Shown: one piece after another, positions 3,620 to 20,020 of the stretch
Layout of the letters: every line of letters starts with the position of its first letter
Position numbering within the stretch: the first letter of the stretch is position 1
Virus record (IMG/VR): IMGVR_UViG_3300042868_003025
Location: 1 to 44,323 of that record
Length of the DNA stretch: 44,323 bases
From: a virus
Direction: 5' to 3' (one strand)
The notes under the pieces: model-generated
Database searches by the model: none
Seen by the model: only the letters and a program-made list of their open reading frames with translations
What the model was told of the DNA's origin: nothing
Position numbers and translations under genes: made by a program

Positions 3620-4912
3620 ATGGCTGAATGGTGGAACGATCCTAACGCGCAGGGTATTACTAAAACTGGGCAGGATCTATTTAACTTTGGTGTCGGCGCA
3701 TTGGGTGCTTTCAGAGGTTTTACGGGGGGACTAGCAGGAATAGTTGGACAACCAATCGATTGGATTACTTCACAAAAACCAAGGCCAATTAACTTTGGCC
3801 CAGCGTTTTCCGGTGGAGCAAAAAGCGTAGGTCCAACCCTAGGCCCAGATGGTAAGCCTATTATTCCTGTATCTCCTACTAATGGTCCCAACCGCGGCGG
3901 TAATAAAACTCCTCCACTAAGCCCCTTAGAGCAATTGCAATACGACATGGCAATGGCAATGACACAAGCAAACAGCCCGGGTCAAGGAGTAAACCTATCT
4001 GGTTACAACAATGCTCTACGAGAGCTTGAGTCCGAAAAAAGTCGTATAAACGATCGCTACAAAAAGTTCTCTGGTCAAATATCTGACATCTACGGAACAT
4101 TAACTGGAATTACTCAGGCTGATATTGCAAACATTGCGCCTACGGGTGCATCTTTAAGAACGGGTCTTTCTGCTCAAGAAGCAGAGCGAGCTGCAGCTAC
4201 GCGTGCTACAGAAGAAGCTAGGCGTGCAGCTGCAACCCAAGCTCGTCAAGAGTTGGGATTAGAAGAAATTGCTGGTGAATACGCTGGCGGTGACGTAGTT
4301 ACAGATCAGTCAGAAGGTATAGTGTCTGACTCAGAGGCAGTAAGAAGCGCTGCTGAAAACACTTTACTGGCAAATGAAGCAATCGCTCAACAATCAGGGC
4401 AAAACCGGATTACCGGTTATGGTTTACAGCAAGAAGAGTCTTCTAAGCAGCTGCAAAAATCTCTTGAAGACGCTTTGGCTGCAATTAGAGCAGAACAGGC
4501 TCAAATTGAAATGGCAAGATCTCAGGCAGCTAGTCAGGCTCGTGGAGGCGGACCCGACTGGGCTACTAGGGCGGCAGGGTTGCAAATGCTTCAAGGATTG
4601 GGAGCGCCACCTCAGGCAAACGATTACATTGGGCAGTGGTTACAAAACAACCCAACAGCAGCACCTCTTGCTGCTCCTGCACTAAACAGCTTTAACGCGT
4701 ATATACAAGCAAACTATGACAAGCTTTTTAACGAAAGCGGCGCAAAAAAAGTAGACCCAAATCTCGCTCTTCAGCGTTTTAGGCAAGTTGCCTCTCCAGC
4801 TGATCTTCAAGCGCTAGGTGACGCTAATATTAGCCTATTTTTAGCTGGATACTATAACAGTTTAGGGCAAACACCAAGTAATCCTTTTGGACCTCCTCCC
4901 GGCGCTAGATAG
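3620..4912 (+). CDS. Internal virion-type protein, coiled-coil rich (430 aa)
   Basis: Not assigned to a named family. The N-terminal 60 residues contain a hydrophobic glycine-rich stretch (FGVGALGAFRGFTGGLAGIVG), then a proline-rich linker (to about residue 100), then a long alanine/glutamine/glutamate helical region (about 125-310) with a probable coiled coil, and a proline-rich C-terminus. A hydrophobic N-terminus plus long helices is what ejected inner-core proteins look like. It precedes two giant proteins that share this character. Role inferred from composition and order. Confidence 0.65.
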   Translation: MAEWWNDPNAQGITKTGQDLFNFGVGALGAFRGFTGGLAGIVGQPIDWITSQKPRPINFGPAFSGGAKSVGPTLGPDGKPIIPVSPTNGPNRGGNKTPPLSPLEQLQYDMAMAMTQANSPGQGVNLSGYNNALRELESEKSRINDRYKKFSGQISDIYGTLTGITQADIANIAPTGASLRTGLSAQEAERAAATRATEEARRAAATQARQELGLEEIAGEYAGGDVVTDQSEGIVSDSEAVRSAAENTLLANEAIAQQSGQNRITGYGLQQEESSKQLQKSLEDALAAIRAEQAQIEMARSQAASQARGGGPDWATRAAGLQMLQGLGAPPQANDYIGQWLQNNPTAAPLAAPALNSFNAYIQANYDKLFNESGAKKVDPNLALQRFRQVASPADLQALGDANISLFLAGYYNSLGQTPSNPFGPPPGAR

Positions 4913-9029: not shown

Positions 9030-12000
9030 TGTCAAAATGTGCAGATGACGCAGGACGCGCAGCATTATCGTCAGCAGAAGCAGCTGGTGCGCTTGACATT
9101 ATCAGGCCATACTTGCAAACCTACGACAAGCTAAGACTTGGAACTACTGATAAAGGTAGAGGTAGCATTACTAGCGGTGGTGAGGTTGCTGTTCGTGGAG
9201 CGATTGAACGCTTTACAAGAGAAGAAGAATTACTTGAAGGTTTCACCCGTAAAGGTGGAATTGAAATTAAAGCAGGCGAGGGAAAGAAGTTTAAGAGAGA
9301 AGCTCAGCAGAAGAGCATAGTAAATCAATTTCATCTTGCCAAGGGTTATGCTTTTGTTGCGGGTATCGCTAGAGCTAATGGTAGAAAATCTGGAGTTATG
9401 GATCTTGCCCAGGCTCGTATATTTTCTGATCAAGCATTCTTGCACGACTCTTTTTACCGTCGTATGGGCATACCGCTAACCACCGTTAAGCCTAGCGTGC
9501 TAGCAGGTGCTGAACATTGGTCTCACGTAACTTTTGGCGATCTTGCTCGTATCTTTAAGGTCGAAGGTAAGCTAGAGTCTTTTGCTAACTACTTCCTTAG
9601 AAGCACTGATGGCACAAAAAATATTCAAACACAAAACACCGCTGAAGCCGTGCGTCGTATTGTCGAACACGCTGATACGTTCGGCAGGGTAAACATGGAT
9701 GAGGACATCGCTCTGTTACGTCCTCAAATTATTGACGCGCTGACAAATCCCTCTGGTCTAGGTAGACCTAAAGCCAAAAGCGCTGAAGCCGAAGGTTACG
9801 ATAAAGCAATTGCCTGGGGTACAAGCCCAGAGGGTAAAAAACTAATCGAAGAGCTTGCGGACGAGCTGCTGTCAGAAGGCACAATAACTAACATTCTAAA
9901 ACTTAATGAAGAAATGCGCTTAGTCAACATGGCGTTTTCTAGGGGGGATGGGCTAAAAGCTGCACAAGGTGTAATTGACATGCTTCTTAAGCTACCAAAC
10001 CCTAATGATAGAGTTTTTGCTTACGGCGATGTTATTAAAAACGGTCTTTTTAGAAAGATGCTTAAAGACGATCCAATGACAGCTCACATGCCAGGAGAAA
10101 TGAACCTGGCTTGGGGGGAGAACTTCATTGCAGAATTTTTGTCTGGTATTGACGATAGTTCGCTTGCGTTGTCAAAAACAGTTGCTGAAAGAGCTGCAGC
10201 TAACCAGGCCGACAAAGCAGCAAAGGCTGCCGCGAAGGCTCAAGGTAAGAAAGTTCCGGAATCTAGAAAGACTCTAAACAGAAATAGGCAAGTAGATAAA
10301 GAGTTTAAAGAGGCTGCGCCAGCCATCGCCTCTAAGGCAAAAGAGAACATGCAGGACCCGAATGTTAGAGTTGGCGAATACGGCGACGAAGCTGCTGAGC
10401 TAGCAGAAACTTACCGCTTGCAGTTTGACGTAGGACCCTTGATGAGCTTCCCTGTAAAAGCATTTAACTGGGTTAACGATCGCGCCATCATGGGTGAAAA
10501 GATGAAGACTCAGGTAATCGGAGCTGAAAACTTTAGAAAACACAACGCTGCTTCTATGGTTGGAGAGCTCGGTAAGTTTTACAATGCTTACGGTCGGGAC
10601 AAAGGTCTGTTTAATAAGGTCTTTATGCAGCTACAAAAAGGCACTTCGGTAGAAGCTATGACTGGTGTTGAGCGCGAGATAGCAGAAACCATGAACATTT
10701 TCATTCAGGATGTGTTTGGTATCGGTTCTAGAAACAACCTAGATCTTAATGCTATTGATCTAGAAGAGTTTACGAAGAGCATGAAATACCTTGGCATGGG
10801 TAAGCTCGCAGACGAAATCGAAGCACTTGATGGTTTTGCCGATGATGCAGTAGGTGAATGGTGGACAAAAATTTCCGTTGATCCTGAAGCAGACAACGCA
10901 CTAGATATCATGTCAAAGACTTACTCTGCTATGCAGCTTTCAAGAATCAAGCCAGCTATTGCTGGATCACTGCGGCAAAACTTCAGCCACACTGCTGATG
11001 GGTTAACGTACCAGCAAGCAATTGATCGCGGGTACAAGCCAATAGCTGAGACTGATGCGCTTTCAAGATTCATTAACATTGGTGACAAGCCTGTTCTATT
11101 TCACCCTCAGATCATCCGAAGAATGGGTGCTGTCAATGGACACCTTAACTACGAAAGAAACTTCGACGGAAACTGGCAGAAGTTCTGGAACATTGTTGAT
11201 CCTACAATCGGTGTTATGAAATCCTCCATTACGCTTTGGCGTCCAGGACATCACATGGTTAGTGCCGTAGGAAACACCTTGATGAATACAATTGCAGGCG
11301 TAAAAGCAGGTGACTACGCTATGGCTGTTCGCATGATGGTAAAGCGTGGCGATCTTGATGATGTTGATGAAGATATTTTAACTCAGGCACTTAGGGGGAA
11401 CGAATTAGAGAATTACAAGGTCGTAGACGGTCAAAACGTTATGGAGCTTGTAATCGATGGTAAAAAGATAGACGTTCCTATGGAGGTTCTATTTAGAGGA
11501 GGTATCGAACTAGGTGGTGTTCCTATCTCCGCTAAAGCTGCTAGAGATAACCTAGACGATGCTAATCCTAACGAAATGGGTCTAGAAGGTATTACTAGAA
11601 GAAACCCGGTGTTCAGGGGAATCTCTAACATTGATCACGCTCTAGGTCGTTTTGCTGCAGCTCGTGACAACGTAGCAAGGTGGGCATTGTTTACTAGAGA
11701 GCTACGCAGAAAGCCTCACGCAACTATTGAGGATGCGATCCTTTACGCTTCTTCGAAGGTTCACGAGTTTCACCCAACAGTGGGAACCCTGTCTGCCGGA
11801 GAACGCAAGTACGCAAGACGAATATTTTACTTCTACACTTGGCAGAAGCAGGCCATGTTTAAGATCATGGAACTTGCAGCTAACCAGCCAGCGCTGGTTA
11901 CAATGCCTAGCAAGGCCCTTTATGCGCTCGCTACAGCTAATGGAATGAACCCAGAAAGCTTTGGTGATCCTTGGAACCCAGAGGGCCTGTACGCCTCTTA

Positions 12001-17039: not shown

Positions 17040-17070
17040 TTAAATGTCTGGAGGGGTAAGGCTATATATA

Positions 17071-17088
17071 GACGGGGACGGATGGAAC
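17071..17088 (+). repeat. GGGGACGGATGGAA repeat, copy A
   Basis: The stretch GACGGGGACGGATGGAAC shares its core with copies at 17826, 18426 and 19107. Here it lies in an open frame from ATG 17044 that reads RLYIDGDGWNLDNIE. At amino-acid level this resembles the GDGWN peptides of the other copies even where bases differ. Downstream GCATAGTA is also shared with the region before 18580. Confidence 0.55.
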
Positions 17089-17178
17089 CTTGACAACATC
17101 GAATGCACTGCATTTAGGGCAGGCCTGCCGGGCATAGTAAGCTATAAGTGTCAAATCAAAAAAGAAAGGATGTTTGAC

Positions 17179-17313: not shown

Positions 17314-17513
17314 GCCGGTACAAGCTAACTCATACCACATGGGTAGCGGACGATGGTAGCTACGGGCATGGTCACATAGTCTTGTATGACTACACTGACC
17401 TAACCCCGGAACAGCAAGAAACCATGGAGGCATTGCCGGACTACGACAAATCGGAATACGTCATGGCATTACTCGACGGCGATGACCTTACTGAATGGGA
17501 GGTTGACGAATGA
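17310..17513 (+). CDS. Small acidic hypothetical protein (67 aa)
   Basis: Not recognised. It reads MSRYKLTHTTWVADDGSYGH and then a strongly acidic half ending DGDDLTEWEVDE. ATGA overlaps at both ends show it is translated within a three-gene unit (44, 67 and 43 aa). Acidic small proteins like this are common in phage early regions, sometimes as inhibitors of host or defence proteins, but nothing here shows a target. Confidence 0.6.
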   Translation: MSRYKLTHTTWVADDGSYGHGHIVLYDYTDLTPEQQETMEALPDYDKSEYVMALLDGDDLTEWEVDE

Positions 17514-17641
17514 GCATAGGCGTGACACTGAGACTCATCCCAACTCGCATGGGCTACATGTACGAATGCCCCGAATGCGAGGCGCGATTCCTCCCTGCAA
17601 TTGCAGACTTTCACAAGTGTCCGGAGGTAGAGGAGGAATAA
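17510..17641 (+). CDS. Tiny zinc-finger-like protein (43 aa)
   Basis: The frame from ATG 17510 to TAA 17641 reads MSIGVTLRLIPTRMGYMYEC and continues with PEC, then ADFHKC, making a CxxC plus HxC pattern of a single small zinc finger. It overlaps the previous stop (ATGA) and is immediately followed by the first tRNA-like hairpin. It is too short for usual ORF cut-offs. DNA, RNA or protein contact is possible; no target is visible. Confidence 0.6.
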   Translation: MSIGVTLRLIPTRMGYMYECPECEARFLPAIADFHKCPEVEEE

Positions 17642-17649
17642 GCAAGGTA

Positions 17650-17689
17650 GCTTGACTGGCAGACACCGGGGTTCAAGTCCCCGGCAAGC
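17650..17689 (+). ncRNA. tRNA-like mini-helix, copy 1 (acceptor-like stem plus T-arm)
   Basis: Outer stem GCTTG (17650-17654) pairs with CAAGC (17685-17689). An 11-nt linker ACTGGCAGACA follows the first strand, then a six-pair arm CCGGGG/CCCCGG (17666-17671 with 17679-17684) closes a seven-base loop TTCAAGT, which fits the tRNA T-loop consensus. There is no D arm or anticodon arm, so it is not a decoding tRNA. A second copy at 19642-19681 keeps the fold with three compensatory pair changes. It starts nine bases after a stop codon. Processing by RNase P or protection of the message are possible roles. Confidence 0.6.
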
Positions 17690-17767
17690 ACGTGTGCCGA
17701 ACAAATCAGTAGGCATTCATCGGGAATGAAACCCGGTTATCAAACGAGCTAGCAAACACTAGCGCTA

Positions 17768-17806
17768 ACCCTGCAAGCCCATCCCCCGGGCCTGCAGGGT
17801 TTTTTT
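17768..17806 (+). terminator. Rho-independent terminator of first accessory unit
   Basis: ACCCTGCAAGCCC (17768-17780) pairs with GGGCCTGCAGGGT (17788-17800) with one mismatch, followed by a run of T to 17806 and then ATGCCC. The same T-run plus ATG(C/T)CC tail occurs after three later terminators. Before it, a smaller hairpin GCTAG/CTAGC lies at 17748-17763. Confidence 0.85.
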
Positions 17807-17823
17807 ATGCCCGGCGCAGAAAC

Positions 17824-17865
17824 AAGGGAACGGATGGAAAGATGATGATGTGCCTACAATGAATT
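17824..17865 (+). repeat. GGGAACGGATGGAA repeat, copy B, with second box
   Basis: GGGAACGGATGGAA (17826-17839) is followed by GATGATGATGTG and then TGCCTACAATGAATT (17851-17865), which corresponds to CGCCTGCAATGGATT in copies C and D. The frame reads QGNGWKDDDVPTMNL then stop, but has no ATG of its own here. It lies between a terminator and the promoter of the 132-aa gene. Confidence 0.6.
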
Positions 17866-17885
17866 TATAGCCTGCCCTACTTGTC

Positions 17886-17938
17886 TAGTATTATTGTTCT
17901 TGTAGCCACTTGGCTACCAAATAAAAGGAGCAATCAAA
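17886..17938 (+). promoter_or_regulatory. Promoter and hairpin leader of the 132-aa gene
   Basis: A TAGTAT -10-like box (17886-17891) predicts a start near 17898. The transcript would begin with hairpin GTAGCC-ACTT-GGCTAC (17902-17917), then an A-rich spacer and AAAAGGAG (17923-17930) eight bases before ATG 17939. The same order occurs before the genes at 18580 and 19296. No clear -35 is seen. Confidence 0.5.
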
Positions 17939-18337
17939 ATGGCAACAGGAACAATCAAGGTAAACCGCACCGCACTAATCGCCAAGCTAGAGTCAGTCAA
18001 GGCAGACCTAGAGAAGCAGTTAGCTAGGAAAAGGGAAATAAAAGACCAGTATGAACTTGAGCTCAAGAAGTGGAGAGATGGAGCTGTAAAGCACATTATT
18101 GAGGTTCAGAGCCACCGCTACGGCAACACTTTTGAGTTCAGAGTGTCAGACGCTTACTTGGCTAAACTACCCAAGGAGAAGCCTTTTGACCCTAAGAACC
18201 CAAACATAGTTTCCCCTAGTTGGAGCATTGAGTCAGACATAAAGAACCTAGCTCAATCCCTAGCAATACTGAAGCTATCAGAAGAGCAGACAGTCAATCA
18301 GTCCTTGCTCAAGAGCCTAGCTCAGTATCTAGCGTAA
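17939..18337 (+). CDS. Hypothetical helical protein (132 aa)
   Basis: Not recognised. Residues 12-50 form a likely coiled coil (IAKLESVKADLEKQLARKRE and onward). The middle is beta-patterned with basic residues (HRYGNTFEFRVSDAYLAKL). The C-terminus is helical and leucine-rich (NLAQSLAILKLSEEQTVNQS). It is alone in its own unit, with promoter, 5' hairpin and terminator, so it is likely expressed independently. A dimer is plausible. No partner or function can be read. Confidence 0.7.
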   Translation: MATGTIKVNRTALIAKLESVKADLEKQLARKREIKDQYELELKKWRDGAVKHIIEVQSHRYGNTFEFRVSDAYLAKLPKEKPFDPKNPNIVSPSWSIESDIKNLAQSLAILKLSEEQTVNQSLLKSLAQYLA

Positions 18338-18343
18338 AAAGCC

Positions 18344-18386
18344 ACCCTGCCAACACCGCCCCCCTCGGTGTTGGCAGGGTTTTTTT
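18344..18386 (+). terminator. Rho-independent terminator of the 132-aa gene
   Basis: A perfect 15-bp stem, ACCCTGCCAACACCG (18344-18358) with its complement (18366-18380), a seven-base C-rich loop and a T run to 18386, again followed by ATGCCC. Confidence 0.9.
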
Positions 18387-18425
18387 ATGCCCTAAACTTG
18401 ATGCCAACCAAAATTGCTAGGCTCA

Positions 18426-18508
18426 TTTATAACGGGGACGGATGGAACGATGATGATGTGTTTTTGATGATGCGTTTTGATGATGTGATGATGCGCCTGC
18501 AATGGATT
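18426..18508 (+). repeat. 35-bp intergenic repeat, copy C, with CTGCAATGGATT box
   Basis: Bases 18426-18460 match 19107-19141 at 34 of 35 positions. A second box CGCCTGCAATGGATT (18494-18508) is identical at 19154-19168. The spacer here holds GATGATG-type short repeats. An open frame from ATG 18401 to TGA 18514 (37 aa) reads through it and contains RLIYNGDGWNDDDV and ends MRLQWIP. No good ribosome site precedes that ATG. Confidence 0.7.
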
Positions 18509-18531
18509 CCGTGATGACCGTGCCTGCATAG

Positions 18532-18579
18532 TAGTATTGACCTTGTAGCCACTTGGCTACCTAACTAAAGGAGCAAACC
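18532..18579 (+). promoter_or_regulatory. Promoter and hairpin leader of the 144-aa gene
   Basis: TAGTAT (18532-18537) sits the same distance as at 17886 before an identical hairpin, GTAGCC-ACTT-GGCTAC (18545-18560). AAAGGAG (18567-18573) follows, six bases before ATG 18580. The bases around the hairpin are nearly identical to those before 17939, showing a duplicated leader. Confidence 0.5.
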
Positions 18580-19014
18580 ATGCAAAGAACATACCAAGTA
18601 ACCTACGAAGCAACCTACTACGTCCGAGCTAACGACGAGGACGAGGCTATCGAGCTGGCAATTGAACAGCACAACGACGGCCCGGATGGGTGTTGGGAAG
18701 CGCAGTTAGAGCCTTACGTGTCACCACTTGAGGACCTTGACGACGGCACCTACATCCAAGGCGTCGACGGCCTAGAGGACTACGAGGCACCAAAGACCGG
18801 CTACTGGATAGGCACTGTACCCGTGCAGAGCCTGTCAGATGTACCCCTAGGCGCCTTCCTAGGCGTCTGGACCGACCCAGCTGATGGCAAGCGGTACTAC
18901 GATATAACCGTGTATCAAATTGACCTCACTGAGGCGCTAAGAATTGGCAAGCTATTCAGCCAAATAAGCATCTGGGATATATCAGAGAAGAGACCTATTC
19001 CAGTAAACGTCTAG
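18580..19014 (+). CDS. Hypothetical acidic protein (144 aa)
   Basis: The N-terminus MQRTYQVTYEATYYVRANDE followed by DEAIELAIEQ resembles small beta-strand plus helix domains found in many phage and plasmid accessory proteins (often DpnD/PcfM-like by appearance, not certain). The remainder is acidic with beta patterns (YWIGTVPVQSLSDVPLGAFL). It is a single-gene unit with its own leader and terminator. Function unknown. Confidence 0.65.
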   Translation: MQRTYQVTYEATYYVRANDEDEAIELAIEQHNDGPDGCWEAQLEPYVSPLEDLDDGTYIQGVDGLEDYEAPKTGYWIGTVPVQSLSDVPLGAFLGVWTDPADGKRYYDITVYQIDLTEALRIGKLFSQISIWDISEKRPIPVNV

Positions 19015-19027
19015 GTTGCTCCCTAGT

Positions 19028-19068
19028 AACCCTGCAGGCACTGATCTTCGGTGCCTGCAGGGTTTTTT
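19028..19068 (+). terminator. Rho-independent terminator of the 144-aa gene
   Basis: AACCCTGCAGGCAC (19028-19041) pairs with GTGCCTGCAGGGTT (19051-19064) around a nine-base loop, then T to 19068 followed by CATGCCC. The stem shares the CCCTGCAGG core with the terminator at 17768. Confidence 0.88.
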
Positions 19069-19069
19069 C

Positions 19070-19171
19070 ATGCCCAAATCCGGGTGGATGATGACGATGT
19101 TGCGCTTTTATAACGGGAACGGATGGAACGATGATGATGTGCCCTGCCTGCACCGCCTGCAATGGATTTAG
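19070..19171 (+). CDS. Possible 33-aa peptide spanning repeat copy D
   Basis: ATG 19070 directly follows the terminator T-run, and the frame ends at TAG 19171. It contains MLRFYNGNGWNDDDV and ends HRLQWI, matching the 37-aa frame at 18401-18514 at both the GNGWNDDDV and LQWI blocks. There is no recognisable ribosome site and the U-run lies just before it, so translation is doubtful. It may simply be a DNA repeat with an open frame. Confidence 0.25.
   Translation: MPKSGWMMTMLRFYNGNGWNDDDVPCLHRLQWI
19107..19168 (+). repeat. 35-bp intergenic repeat, copy D, with CTGCAATGGATT box
   Basis: Bases 19107-19141 differ from copy C at a single position (GGGAACGG against GGGGACGG). The second box at 19154-19168 is identical to that of copy C. 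The spacer between them is shorter than in C and unrelated to it, so the two boxes are kept while the bases between change. Confidence 0.7.
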
Positions 19172-19202
19172 GCAAGCATGTCTGGCAGTGATAGCATCTA
19201 AT

Positions 19203-19295
19203 CATGACTCACATAGTAGACACTGAGAGTCATGCCTATACAAAAAAATCGATACGTGTTAGCCAGTTTGGCTAGCACAGAAAAGGAGCACCACA
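19203..19295 (+). promoter_or_regulatory. Upstream region and hairpin leader of the 112-aa gene
   Basis: ATGACTC (19204-19210) and GAGTCAT (19227-19233) form an inverted repeat enclosing CATAGTAG, a string also seen before 18580. Further on, TAGCCA-GTT-TGGCTA (19260-19274, extendable by a wobble and a G-C pair) gives the same type of hairpin as before 17939 and 18580. AAAAGGAG then precedes ATG 19296. The -10 is not clear. Confidence 0.4.
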
Positions 19296-19634
19296 ATGAC
19301 CACAGAAACAACGCTAGACGACGTGTACGAGGCTTGGAAGGTTGAGCAAGACTATTCTGACCAAGCAACCCGTGAACGCTTTGAGGAGGCACTGATAGGC
19401 GAGTTCTATAGCTATGCAGAATTAGCCGAGCATGTCTTAGAAGGCACCGGAGATGTTGATGATCTATTGAACAAGGTAGACAGCCACTTGGCCCCATACT
19501 TGACGTTTGATTATCAGATGTTTGGAAGGGACTTGGACCTTAGTGGCGACGTTTACACAATTGAGCTACAGCTACCTATTGGTACAGCTGGCCACAGCAT
19601 AAAAAGAACGTATTACTTTTGGGCTAACGTTTAG
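19296..19634 (+). CDS. Hypothetical acidic protein (112 aa)
   Basis: Not recognised. The N-terminal half is helical and acidic (TTLDDVYEAWKVEQDYSDQA, then FSYAEL-type pattern EFYSYAELAEHVLEG). The second half is beta-patterned (DVYTIELQLPIGTAGHSIKR). AAAAGGAG precedes the ATG. The gene is followed after seven bases by the second tRNA-like hairpin and then by the 98-aa gene without a terminator, so these probably share a transcript. Function unknown. Confidence 0.65.
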   Translation: MTTETTLDDVYEAWKVEQDYSDQATRERFEEALIGEFYSYAELAEHVLEGTGDVDDLLNKVDSHLAPYLTFDYQMFGRDLDLSGDVYTIELQLPIGTAGHSIKRTYYFWANV

Positions 19635-19641
19635 TCCAATA

Positions 19642-19681
19642 GCCTGACTGGCAGGCATCGAGGTTCGAGCCCTCGACAGGC
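19642..19681 (+). ncRNA. tRNA-like mini-helix, copy 2
   Basis: Outer stem GCCTG (19642-19646) with CAGGC (19677-19681), an 11-nt linker ACTGGCAGGCA, and a six-pair arm TCGAGG/CCTCGA (19658-19663 with 19671-19676) closing TTCGAGC, again a T-loop. Compared with copy 1, one outer pair and two arm pairs change as pairs and none is broken. It lies between two protein genes of one transcript and is followed at once by hairpin GCTAGC-ACATC-GCTAGC (19686-19702). Confidence 0.6.
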
Positions 19682-19685
19682 ACGA

Positions 19686-19723
19686 GCTAGCACATCGCTA
19701 GCCAAGTAGAAAGGAGCACCACA
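19686..19723 (+). promoter_or_regulatory. Hairpin and ribosome site before the 98-aa gene
   Basis: GCTAGC (19686-19691) and GCTAGC (19697-19702) form a hairpin with loop ACATC. GAAAGGAGCACCACA then precedes ATG 19724 and is the same ribosome-site string as before 19296. It continues the hairpin-then-AAAGGAGCA leader pattern, here inside a transcript rather than at its start. Confidence 0.5.
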
Positions 19724-20020
19724 ATGGGAAGCAATTTCGCAACAGAGCTAGCTAATGGAGTCTTTCCCGACTTGACGCTAGAAGCACAGATTCAGATACA
19801 CCTAAAGAGCAACCACTATCCACCGGTCCCGTTGAGCATGGTCCAACCATGCCTCGAGGCGATCGATGCCTATTGGGAAGACGACCTCAAGAAAGAGATC
19901 GATCTAAACGGAGCTCAATGGCGTGGTAATTCCACCGCACCAGCTTGGGCCATAATTGAGTCACACCACCTTGATGCATGGTGCACCGAGGATGATTACA
20001 TCGAAGAAGAAGGAGAATAA
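19724..20020 (+). CDS. Hypothetical protein (98 aa)
   Basis: Not recognised. It contains LANGVFPDLTLEAQIQIHLK near the N-terminus, then YPPVPLSMVQPCLEAIDAYW, and an acidic C-terminus (DAWCTEDDYIEEEGE). Composition suggests a compact helical protein. AAAGGAG at a nine-base distance supports the ATG. The next gene begins two bases after its stop. It sits with the 135-aa and 192-aa genes in one unit closed by the terminator at 21010. Confidence 0.6.
   Translation: MGSNFATELANGVFPDLTLEAQIQIHLKSNHYPPVPLSMVQPCLEAIDAYWEDDLKKEIDLNGAQWRGNSTAPAWAIIESHHLDAWCTEDDYIEEEGE

Follow-up and report, generated by a model that had tools for sequence, protein, structure and literature searches.

The two 40-nt elements described here, found in a 44,323-nt stretch of viral DNA (IMG/VR record IMGVR_UViG_3300042868_003025, hereafter the window), are members of an extensive family of small tRNA mimics, which occurs in many bacterial viruses and in some archaeal ones. 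Their covariation points to a tRNA elbow that lacks an anticodon arm and has a single pair as its D-stem, and host tRNA-processing enzymes probably act on the viral message at these sites. With moderate confidence we favour tRNA punctuation, in which host RNase P would cut on the 5' side of the element.

Copy 1 reads GCTTG-ACTGGCAGACA-CCGGGG-TTCAAGT-CCCCGG-CAAGC, and copy 2 reads GCCTG-ACTGGCAGGCA-TCGAGG-TTCGAGC-CCTCGA-CAGGC (Table 1). Both had been located by a sequence-only reading of the window, and the sequence confirms their coordinates as well as the compensatory stem changes that it had listed between them, namely one outer pair and two arm pairs; a fourth paired change, A14 to G14 in the linker with T29 to C29 in the loop, had been missed. 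Copy 1 satisfies all tertiary pairs (C7-G13, A14-T29, C15-G28, G9-T24 and G10-C25). A third copy was not found in the window, even allowing 3 mismatches. In thermodynamic folding, copy 1 adopts the reported fold (-16.4 kcal/mol) and isolated copy 2 prefers an alternative to it; the predicted fold of the element is based on covariation and not on minimum free energy.

Table 1. Coordinates of the two elements and of their surroundings in the window.
Feature	Position	Strand	Evidence or remark
Element copy 1	17650..17689	+	Sequence; covariance models R1 70.2 bits, R2 67.5 bits
Copy 1 acceptor	17650-17654 with 17685-17689	+	
Copy 1 linker (D-loop-like)	17655-17665	+	
Copy 1 T-stem	17666-17671 with 17679-17684	+	
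Copy 1 T-loop	17672-17678	+	
Element copy 2	19642..19681	+	Sequence; covariance models R1 69.1 bits, R2 67.6 bits
Copy 2 acceptor	19642-19646 with 19677-19681	+	
Copy 2 linker	19647-19657	+	
Copy 2 T-stem	19658-19663 with 19671-19676	+	
Copy 2 T-loop	19664-19670	+	
43-codon ORF upstream of copy 1	17510..17641	+	TAA 8 nt before copy 1; no PHROG match
R41-C42 (AC) after copy 1 acceptor	17690..17691	+	Equivalents of discriminator 73 and C74
Non-coding tail 3' of copy 1	17692..17805	+	Small hairpins, then terminator-like inverted repeat with T run
112-aa gene 5' of copy 2	19296..19634	+	Weak anti-restriction protein match (phrog_2059, E = 2e-5); stop codon TAG 7 nt before copy 2
R41-C42 (AC) after copy 2	19682..19683	+	Sequence; family conservation
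Second hairpin GCTAGC-ACATC-GCTAGC, in leader of next gene	19686..19702	+	Sequence
98-aa gene 3' of copy 2, no assigned function	19724..20020	+	AAAGGAG ribosome-binding site at 19710-19716

Hundreds of phage contigs carry the element. Scanning 2.58 Mb for structure alone gave 705 matches, whereas the reversed sequence gave 0 and the shuffled sequence 1; the count is not a prevalence, because the scanned loci were mostly retrieved with seed patterns. A scan of 1.61 Mb returned 529 matches against 0 and 1, and these controls exclude a chance origin. Hosts of the element-bearing viruses include Streptomyces, Mycobacterium, Gordonia, Bacteroides and haloarchaea, and the named phages comprise Konstantine, Rope, Endor1 and other Camvirus, and cluster A relatives. 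The plasmids and E. coli genomes searched gave no match, and a match in Vibrio PG07 was rejected, as by eye it looks like part of an unannotated tRNA. The main class has 5 + 6 bp, an 11-nt linker and an 11-bp rod, while a 6 + 6-bp sub-type (79 distinct elements) has a 12-bp rod and a 10-nt linker; across the family the length is 40-43 nt and the linker between acceptor and T-arm 10-13 nt. The sequence-only reading had not recognised the RNA class; no Rfam family matches the elements at the gathering threshold and no prior description was found in open-licence papers. As far as these searches showed, the family is visible in well-studied phages yet apparently undescribed, and, if true, it would be a widespread structured-RNA family outside Rfam with unusually strong covariation, tertiary pairs included.

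The acceptor/T-arm mini-helix with T-loops proposed earlier keeps its pairs in homologues, with no systematic breaks: 99.7% of alignment cells are paired, with double changes in 13 of the 15 pairs, and pairing falls to 25-48% when the partners are slid out of register. G1-C40 is present in 132/142, and pairs 7-13 and 14-29 are among the ten with the highest MI-APC, the others being helix pairs. The comparison of sequences thus shows an acceptor/T-arm rod (5 + 6 or 6 + 6 bp) and a miniature D-loop, formed by the 10-11-nt linker, which docks onto the T-loop by means of G18-U55 (or A18-G55) and G19-C56. In the main class the docking is locked by a linker/T-loop pseudoknot (14-29 and 15-28) and by the one-pair D-stem (7-13). 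Among 228 NGGCA-core sequences, pairs 14-29 and 15-28 are formed in 228/228, with six and two pair types, respectively, and pair 7-13, which closes the GG loop, in 98.7%. The G18-U55 equivalent is swapped only for A18-G55, with 250 GG/T and 10 AG/G cases among all 11-nt linkers (240 and 10 in the gapless set) and none mixed in either set. The G19 and C56 equivalents are invariant (117/117, covariance-model set), and positions 10 and 25 are G-C in 249/250. Likewise the T-loop, TTCRANY with G53-C61 closure, U54 and A58, is invariant in 117 distinct cores except for T24 to G (3) and T24 to C (1). In sub-type III, strict covariation was not supported for a pair between linker G7 and loop C28. The docking of GG into the T-loop, previously inferred from the two copies, is backed by the exchange of G18-U55 for A18-G55 and by pairs 14-29, 15-28 and 7-13, all three absent from that account.

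These compensatory changes at almost every pair, tertiary ones included, weigh against a DNA-level signal (a recombination or att site), decayed tRNA genes or chance, as do the scanner counts (705 against 0 and 1), the strand and stop-codon placement described below, and the lack of any tRNA call in the window; although the linker looks like a D-loop and the 3' half like the 3' end of a tRNA, we find such an origin hardly credible. A full tRNA in the same place, or a split one, was likewise rejected, given that ARAGORN and Rfam made no call in the window and that the linker is too short. An att-site relic of a tRNA was discarded in view of the multiple copies and compensatory changes.

Sequence context shows the element immediately 3' of stop codons, in the orientation of the genes; R-C comes next, in many cases with a hairpin and a ribosome-binding site behind it. 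The median distance from stop codon to G1 is 8 nt (335/400 within 20 nt), against control medians of 58 nt on the opposite strand and 66 nt at random, and the next start codon follows at a median of 44 nt (42 nt from copy 2 to the next ATG); that both copies in the window trail a stop codon by a few bases had already been noted correctly. All copies share one strand in 111 of 112 multi-copy loci, the exception having two divergent operons. In the right arm of Endor1 the element occupies 8/8 gaps of at least 80 nt, and in Rope 8 annotated gaps hold a model-called element, with one more seen by eye. The layout is of the punctuation type, in which tRNA-like units separate the genes and share their orientation; like the family spread, R41-C42 and the second hairpin, it was not part of the sequence-only reading.

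In the tail of copy 1, one hairpin shows paired changes in the relative L035 (GCTAG/CTAGC to GCTGG/CCAGC), and the terminator-like site was not among the calls of a simple terminator scan. An 8-codon ORF 3' of copy 1 was rejected as a leader peptide and is read as structure, because its stop is lost in L035 while the hairpin there covaries. The element itself was rejected as an intrinsic terminator, as no T run follows it.

A spacing of 6-9 nt would bring the element near the downstream edge of a ribosome on the stop codon, and the tRNA elbow is recognised in each of the three ribosomal sites (PMC4810234). An uncut element might then block exonucleases as a compact RNA, or manage the terminating ribosome and re-initiation, since a tRNA elbow can touch the ribosome. 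We regard this as improbable: a pure barrier has no need of the invariant G19-C56 face, the faithful A18-G55 exchange or R41-C42, and many of the genes that follow carry a ribosome-binding site of their own some 44 nt away.

In the main class (5 + 6 bp, 11-nt linker), R41 and C42 are each present in 344/345. In a separate count, position 43 is T in 150, G in 88, C in 36 and A in 24, so that the C75 equivalent is unconserved; CCA is not encoded. Haloarchaeal copies have C41, and one of them lacks C42. In 41% of family members, against 4% of shuffles, a stem of at least 6 bp begins no more than 9 nt from position 41. The element combines features of RNase P substrates, namely the acceptor/T rod with G1-C72, the elbow and R73-C74.

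We propose that each element is a cis-acting RNA within a polycistronic phage transcript, where host RNase P would read the G19-C56 elbow face, the coaxial acceptor/T rod, G1-C72 and bases 73-74. A cut on the 5' side would separate the cistrons. Less surely, the element would remain at the head of the downstream message as a structured cap with a 5'-monophosphate, because C42 corresponds to C74, which inhibits or generally disfavours tRNase Z (RNase Z), and cap and second hairpin together may shield that message from 5'-end-dependent decay. RNase P recognises the elbow through stacking and forms pairs with nucleotides 73-75 (PMC4810234; PMC11143913), and some phage RNAs and mRNAs are processed by it (PMC11143913). 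Several points speak against RNase P: the rod of the commonest class is 11 bp against the 12 of tRNA (the 6 + 6 class has 12), C75 is unconserved and no CCA is encoded, haloarchaeal copies have C41 with one lacking C42, a 5' cut would leave the upstream message with an unstructured 3' end of about 6-9 nt, and the alternative predicted for isolated copy 2 may compete with the fold.

The proximity to the upstream stop codon (median 8 nt) and the conserved R-C would also suit a mimic of a tRNA 3' end, with cutting or trimming downstream of the element by tRNase Z, or by an endonuclease and 3' exonucleases. The upstream message would then end in a tRNA-like fold, which the host CCA enzyme might extend to CCA, with R-C as the first two bases of RCCA. 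The element would guard the 3' end of the preceding gene, and the second hairpin the 5' end of the next. In many copies the hairpin starts 3-5 nt past the acceptor, and a cut between them would therefore give both products structured ends. We nevertheless consider this reading unlikely, as C74 is generally unfavourable for tRNase Z, long 5' leaders make poor substrates for it, and CCA is not encoded; in its favour, the elbow is read by both tRNase Z and CCA enzymes (PMC4810234).

The placement in operon gaps genome-wide fits RNase P use better than decoy or CCA-enzyme use. A released decoy or sponge, in which the excised element would occupy tRNA-binding host or defence factors, would account for the faithful elbow mimicry, and plant-virus tRNA-like RNAs do hijack tRNA-binding factors (PMC4810234), but there is one copy per intergenic gap at a fixed stop-codon spacing, not arrays or units with their own promoters, and the anticodon arm is missing, which makes a decoy very unlikely in our view.

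Returning to punctuation by RNase P, we lean slightly towards a pan-viral RNA class, covering viruses of Actinobacteria and Bacteroidetes and haloarchaeal viruses, in which the pseudoknot-locked, anticodon-less elbow would be the standard intercistronic processing signal and host tRNA maturation would yield monocistronic messages with defined ends. If true, this would explain how messages are separated and stabilised in compact phage operons, and tRNA punctuation would have arisen anew in viruses of two domains, convergently with mitochondria. It would also inform on the minimal elbow that a tRNA enzyme needs, and the element would be among the smallest natural tRNA-elbow mimics for studies of RNase P, tRNase Z and CCA enzymes, also usable as an RNA part.

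In mitochondria, tRNA-shaped units between same-strand genes likewise serve as processing signals, the role proposed here, but those are real tRNAs, whereas the phage elements are anticodon-less mimics with no decoding role. MALAT1 mascRNA/menRNA (RF01684) is also a tRNA-like RNA inside a long transcript, and mascRNA is cut by RNase P; it differs in sequence, size and architecture, and belongs to a eukaryotic lncRNA and not to bacterial or archaeal viruses. Its model scores 17.7 bits on copy 1 against a gathering threshold of 42.5, over the T-arm only. In Haloferax volcanii, tRNA-like elements are reportedly cut by tRNase Z, which would make them an archaeal processing signal too, in what is said to be a cellular rRNA context. 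The 3' tRNA-like structures of plant viruses (TYMV) share a viral RNA, a near-perfect D/T-loop elbow and a pseudoknot, and that of TYMV is an RNase P substrate (PMC11143913; PMC4810234), but they are 3'-terminal, aminoacylated and from RNA viruses, whereas the elements are internal, tiny, multi-copy and from dsDNA phages. Host RNase P also cuts phage transcripts such as C4 antisense RNA and T4 gene 32 mRNA (PMC11143913); these are not known to form a repeated intergenic family with an elbow.

With tRNA (RF00005) the element shares the T-loop consensus and the D/T-loop pairs G18-U55 and G19-C56, but a 10-13-nt linker between acceptor and T-arm replaces the cloverleaf with its anticodon arm. The acceptor/T stack, 12 bp in tRNA, is 11 bp in the main class and 12 bp in the 79 distinct 6 + 6 elements. 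The tRNA-like domain of tmRNA (RF00023) similarly has an acceptor, a T-arm and a D-loop that docks on the T-loop without a full D-stem, and no anticodon arm. However, tmRNA is several hundred nt long against 40-43, and its tag-coding mRNA-like domain, alanine identity and encoded CCA were not seen in the element, which is intergenic, multi-copy and without an Rfam match at the gathering threshold. In other loci, ARAGORN calls a 'tRNA-???' in L178 and, in L034, a tRNA-Pyl that overlaps a copy, and the latter locus also carries a separate 81-nt tmRNA-like RNA that does match RF00023 (53.6 bits).

The element carried twice by the window is an RNA-level tRNA mimic, which bears an elbow and lies on the sense strand at the ends of genes. 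Both 40-nt copies are present exactly as the sequence-only reading described, and no third was found in the 44,323-base linear virus record, even allowing three mismatches; the two differ at pair 14-29 (A-U and G-C). A covariance model, R1, built from 41 of 42 distinct cores (a mis-registered copy from comparison locus L069 was left out), gave 280 matches at E ≤ 1 from 87 sources. Most of these were unseen by the linker and T-loop pattern, which matched 86 stretches in IMG/VR and 97 copies across the loci read, including the window's own.

Coordinates of the elements, their core and neighbouring or related features (L-handles are contigs read for comparison)
Feature	Source	Position	Remarks
Copy 1	window	17650-17689 (+)	
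Copy 2	window	19642-19681 (+)	
Acceptor	core (1-40)	1-5 with 36-40	
Linker	core	6-16	
T-stem	core	17-22 with 30-35	
T-loop	core	23-29	
Stretch after copy 1	window	17692-17805	non-coding; small hairpins (paired changes in one of them in relative L035) followed by terminator-like repeat
Leader motif GGGRACGGATGGAA, often then GATGATGATG	window	17070-17090, 17826-17850, 18433-18460, 19114-19140	ahead of several rightward genes
Gene preceding copy 2	window	19296-19634	weak likeness to anti-restriction proteins (phrog_2059, E = 2e-5)
ARAGORN tRNA-Pyl call	L034	9354-9438	overlaps mini-element
ARAGORN 'tRNA-???' call	L178	4719-4787	overlaps mini-element
tmRNA-like RNA, 81 nt	L034	12636-12716	Rfam tmRNA, 53.6 bits
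GOLLD RNA	phage Rope (L109)	11061-11521	180.6 bits
Three tandem copies	L090 (MAG ADurb.Bin236)	4084-4369	116 bp apart

Among 142 distinct model-found rows, 99.7% of cells are paired and double changes occur at 13 of 15 pairs, whereas sliding the partner columns by 1-3 lowers pairing to 25-48%. When all column pairs were ranked by MI-APC, the top ten consisted of helix pairs together with 7-13 and 14-29. Since our first structure-only scanner ignores the linker pairs, it provides an independent test of them: in the 228 NGGCA-core sequences, 14-29 is always paired, with six pair types, as is 15-28 (C-G in 224, G-C in 4), and 7-13 is paired in 98.7% (C-G, G-C, A-U and U-A), while control column pairs show no more pairing than shuffles. 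The docking of the linker GG into the T-loop, previously suggested from tRNA, is borne out by the combinations observed (GG with TTC, 250; AG with TGC, 10; mixed, 0), a swap that equals a G18-U55 to A18-G55 exchange. The G19 and C56 equivalents, which in tRNA form the flat elbow face read by RNase P, the ribosome and T-boxes (PMC4810234), are invariant in 117 of 117 model-found cores. Sub-type III has a 6+6-bp rod and the linker ATGGTCGNAG, and among the 79 distinct 12-bp elements wide variation is seen at all but two of the twelve pairs.

That scanner, which combines a 5-bp acceptor, a GG- or AG-containing linker, T-stem and T-loop, gave 529 matches over 1.61 Mb, with 0 once the sequence was reversed and 1 once it was shuffled, and a broader version 705 against 0 and 1 (2.58 Mb), totals that speak for specificity and not for prevalence, as most of the scanned sequence was fetched for carrying a seed pattern. 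Named carriers include the Streptomyces Camvirus phages (Endor1, Joe and many others), Mycobacterium Konstantine, Rope and relatives, Gordonia phages, and haloarchaeal tailed viruses, where the element occupies one conserved gap; additional sub-types are present in Fowlmouth, SWU2, Dagobah, Fromanvirus Mabel, Gordonia MakoManhole and Bacteroides phage BF1-TP2. Plasmids and E. coli gave no match, and in bacterial assemblies the copies are confined to a single locus or a handful of contigs, the pattern that prophages would give.

For 406 elements, the median distance from the nearest upstream ORF stop to G1 is 8 nt (58 on the opposite strand, 66 at random positions), a count including 39 cases at -6 in which the element's own TGA was taken as the stop, and the closest downstream start codon that has a ribosome-binding site follows at a median of 44 nt. 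All copies share one orientation in 111 of 112 loci with at least two, the exception being Gordonia Aleemily, with two divergent operons. In the Endor1 right arm all eight gaps of at least 80 nt hold an element and shorter gaps none; Rope has eight gaps with a model-called element, and divergent copies can be read by eye in several gaps of 80-100 nt that had counted as 'empty' in Konstantine, Rope and Fowlmouth. The tandem array in L090 differs from this usual one-per-gap layout, and in L178 and L138, too, copies of sub-type III lie near one another.

The acceptor is directly followed by R41 and C42, either of which is found in 344 of 345 main-class copies. In 41% of copies, but in 4% of shuffles, a stem 6 bp or longer begins in the next 9 nt, mostly 3-4 nt past position 41. 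Copy 2 matches the family layout exactly (stop, element, hairpin, start), an order also seen in the haloarchaeal viruses (L106, L290-L292), in which the hairpin varies by paired substitutions, the element being nearly constant. What follows copy 1 is not a gene but a set of small hairpins and then a terminator-like repeat.

We infer that tRNA-processing enzymes recognise the element. RNase P would be the first choice, because the conserved features are those it needs, namely the T-stem-loop/elbow, a coaxial rod as ruler, G1-C72 and pairing with bases 73-74, and because phage RNAs and mRNAs are already among its known substrates (PMC11143913). Against RNase P argue the main-class rod of 11 bp, the variability of base 75 and the fact that such a cut would leave the upstream message with an unprotected 3' end. 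The missing CCA and the C at position 74 are unfavourable for efficient tRNase Z cutting, so the element would stay on the downstream message as a cap. The main rival reverses these roles: the upstream message would end in the element, its 3' end thereby protected, and the second hairpin would guard the downstream 5' end. Where the element sits with respect to the stop codon agrees well with this rival. The stretch after copy 1, where hairpins and the terminator-like repeat stand in place of a gene, may be a 3'-UTR small RNA set free by a cut at 17650. The repeated leader motif possibly represents promoter or operator repeats.

The structural and replication genes of the window are phage-like, and an actinobacterial host is likely, since phages of Arthrobacter, Microbacterium and Cellulosimicrobium encode distant relatives of a protein that is among the largest in the window.

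In the window, neither ARAGORN nor Rfam 15 at gathering threshold reported anything, and the sole tRNA-like echo at permissive settings is a mascRNA match in copy 1, confined to its T-arm and below threshold (17.7 bits, cut-off 42.5). No Rfam family matches the elements, and ARAGORN mostly passes over them; its two exceptions, one a false tRNA-Pyl, indicate that they can lead to spurious tRNA annotations in phage genomes. No prior description was found in open-licence full-text papers, so an earlier account elsewhere is possible; the architecture and deployment appear new, whereas tRNA mimicry as such is already known. Other structured RNAs accompany mini-elements in Rope and in L034, where the tmRNA-like RNA has a 7-bp acceptor, a D-loop, one inner hairpin and a T-arm, without the tag-coding domain.
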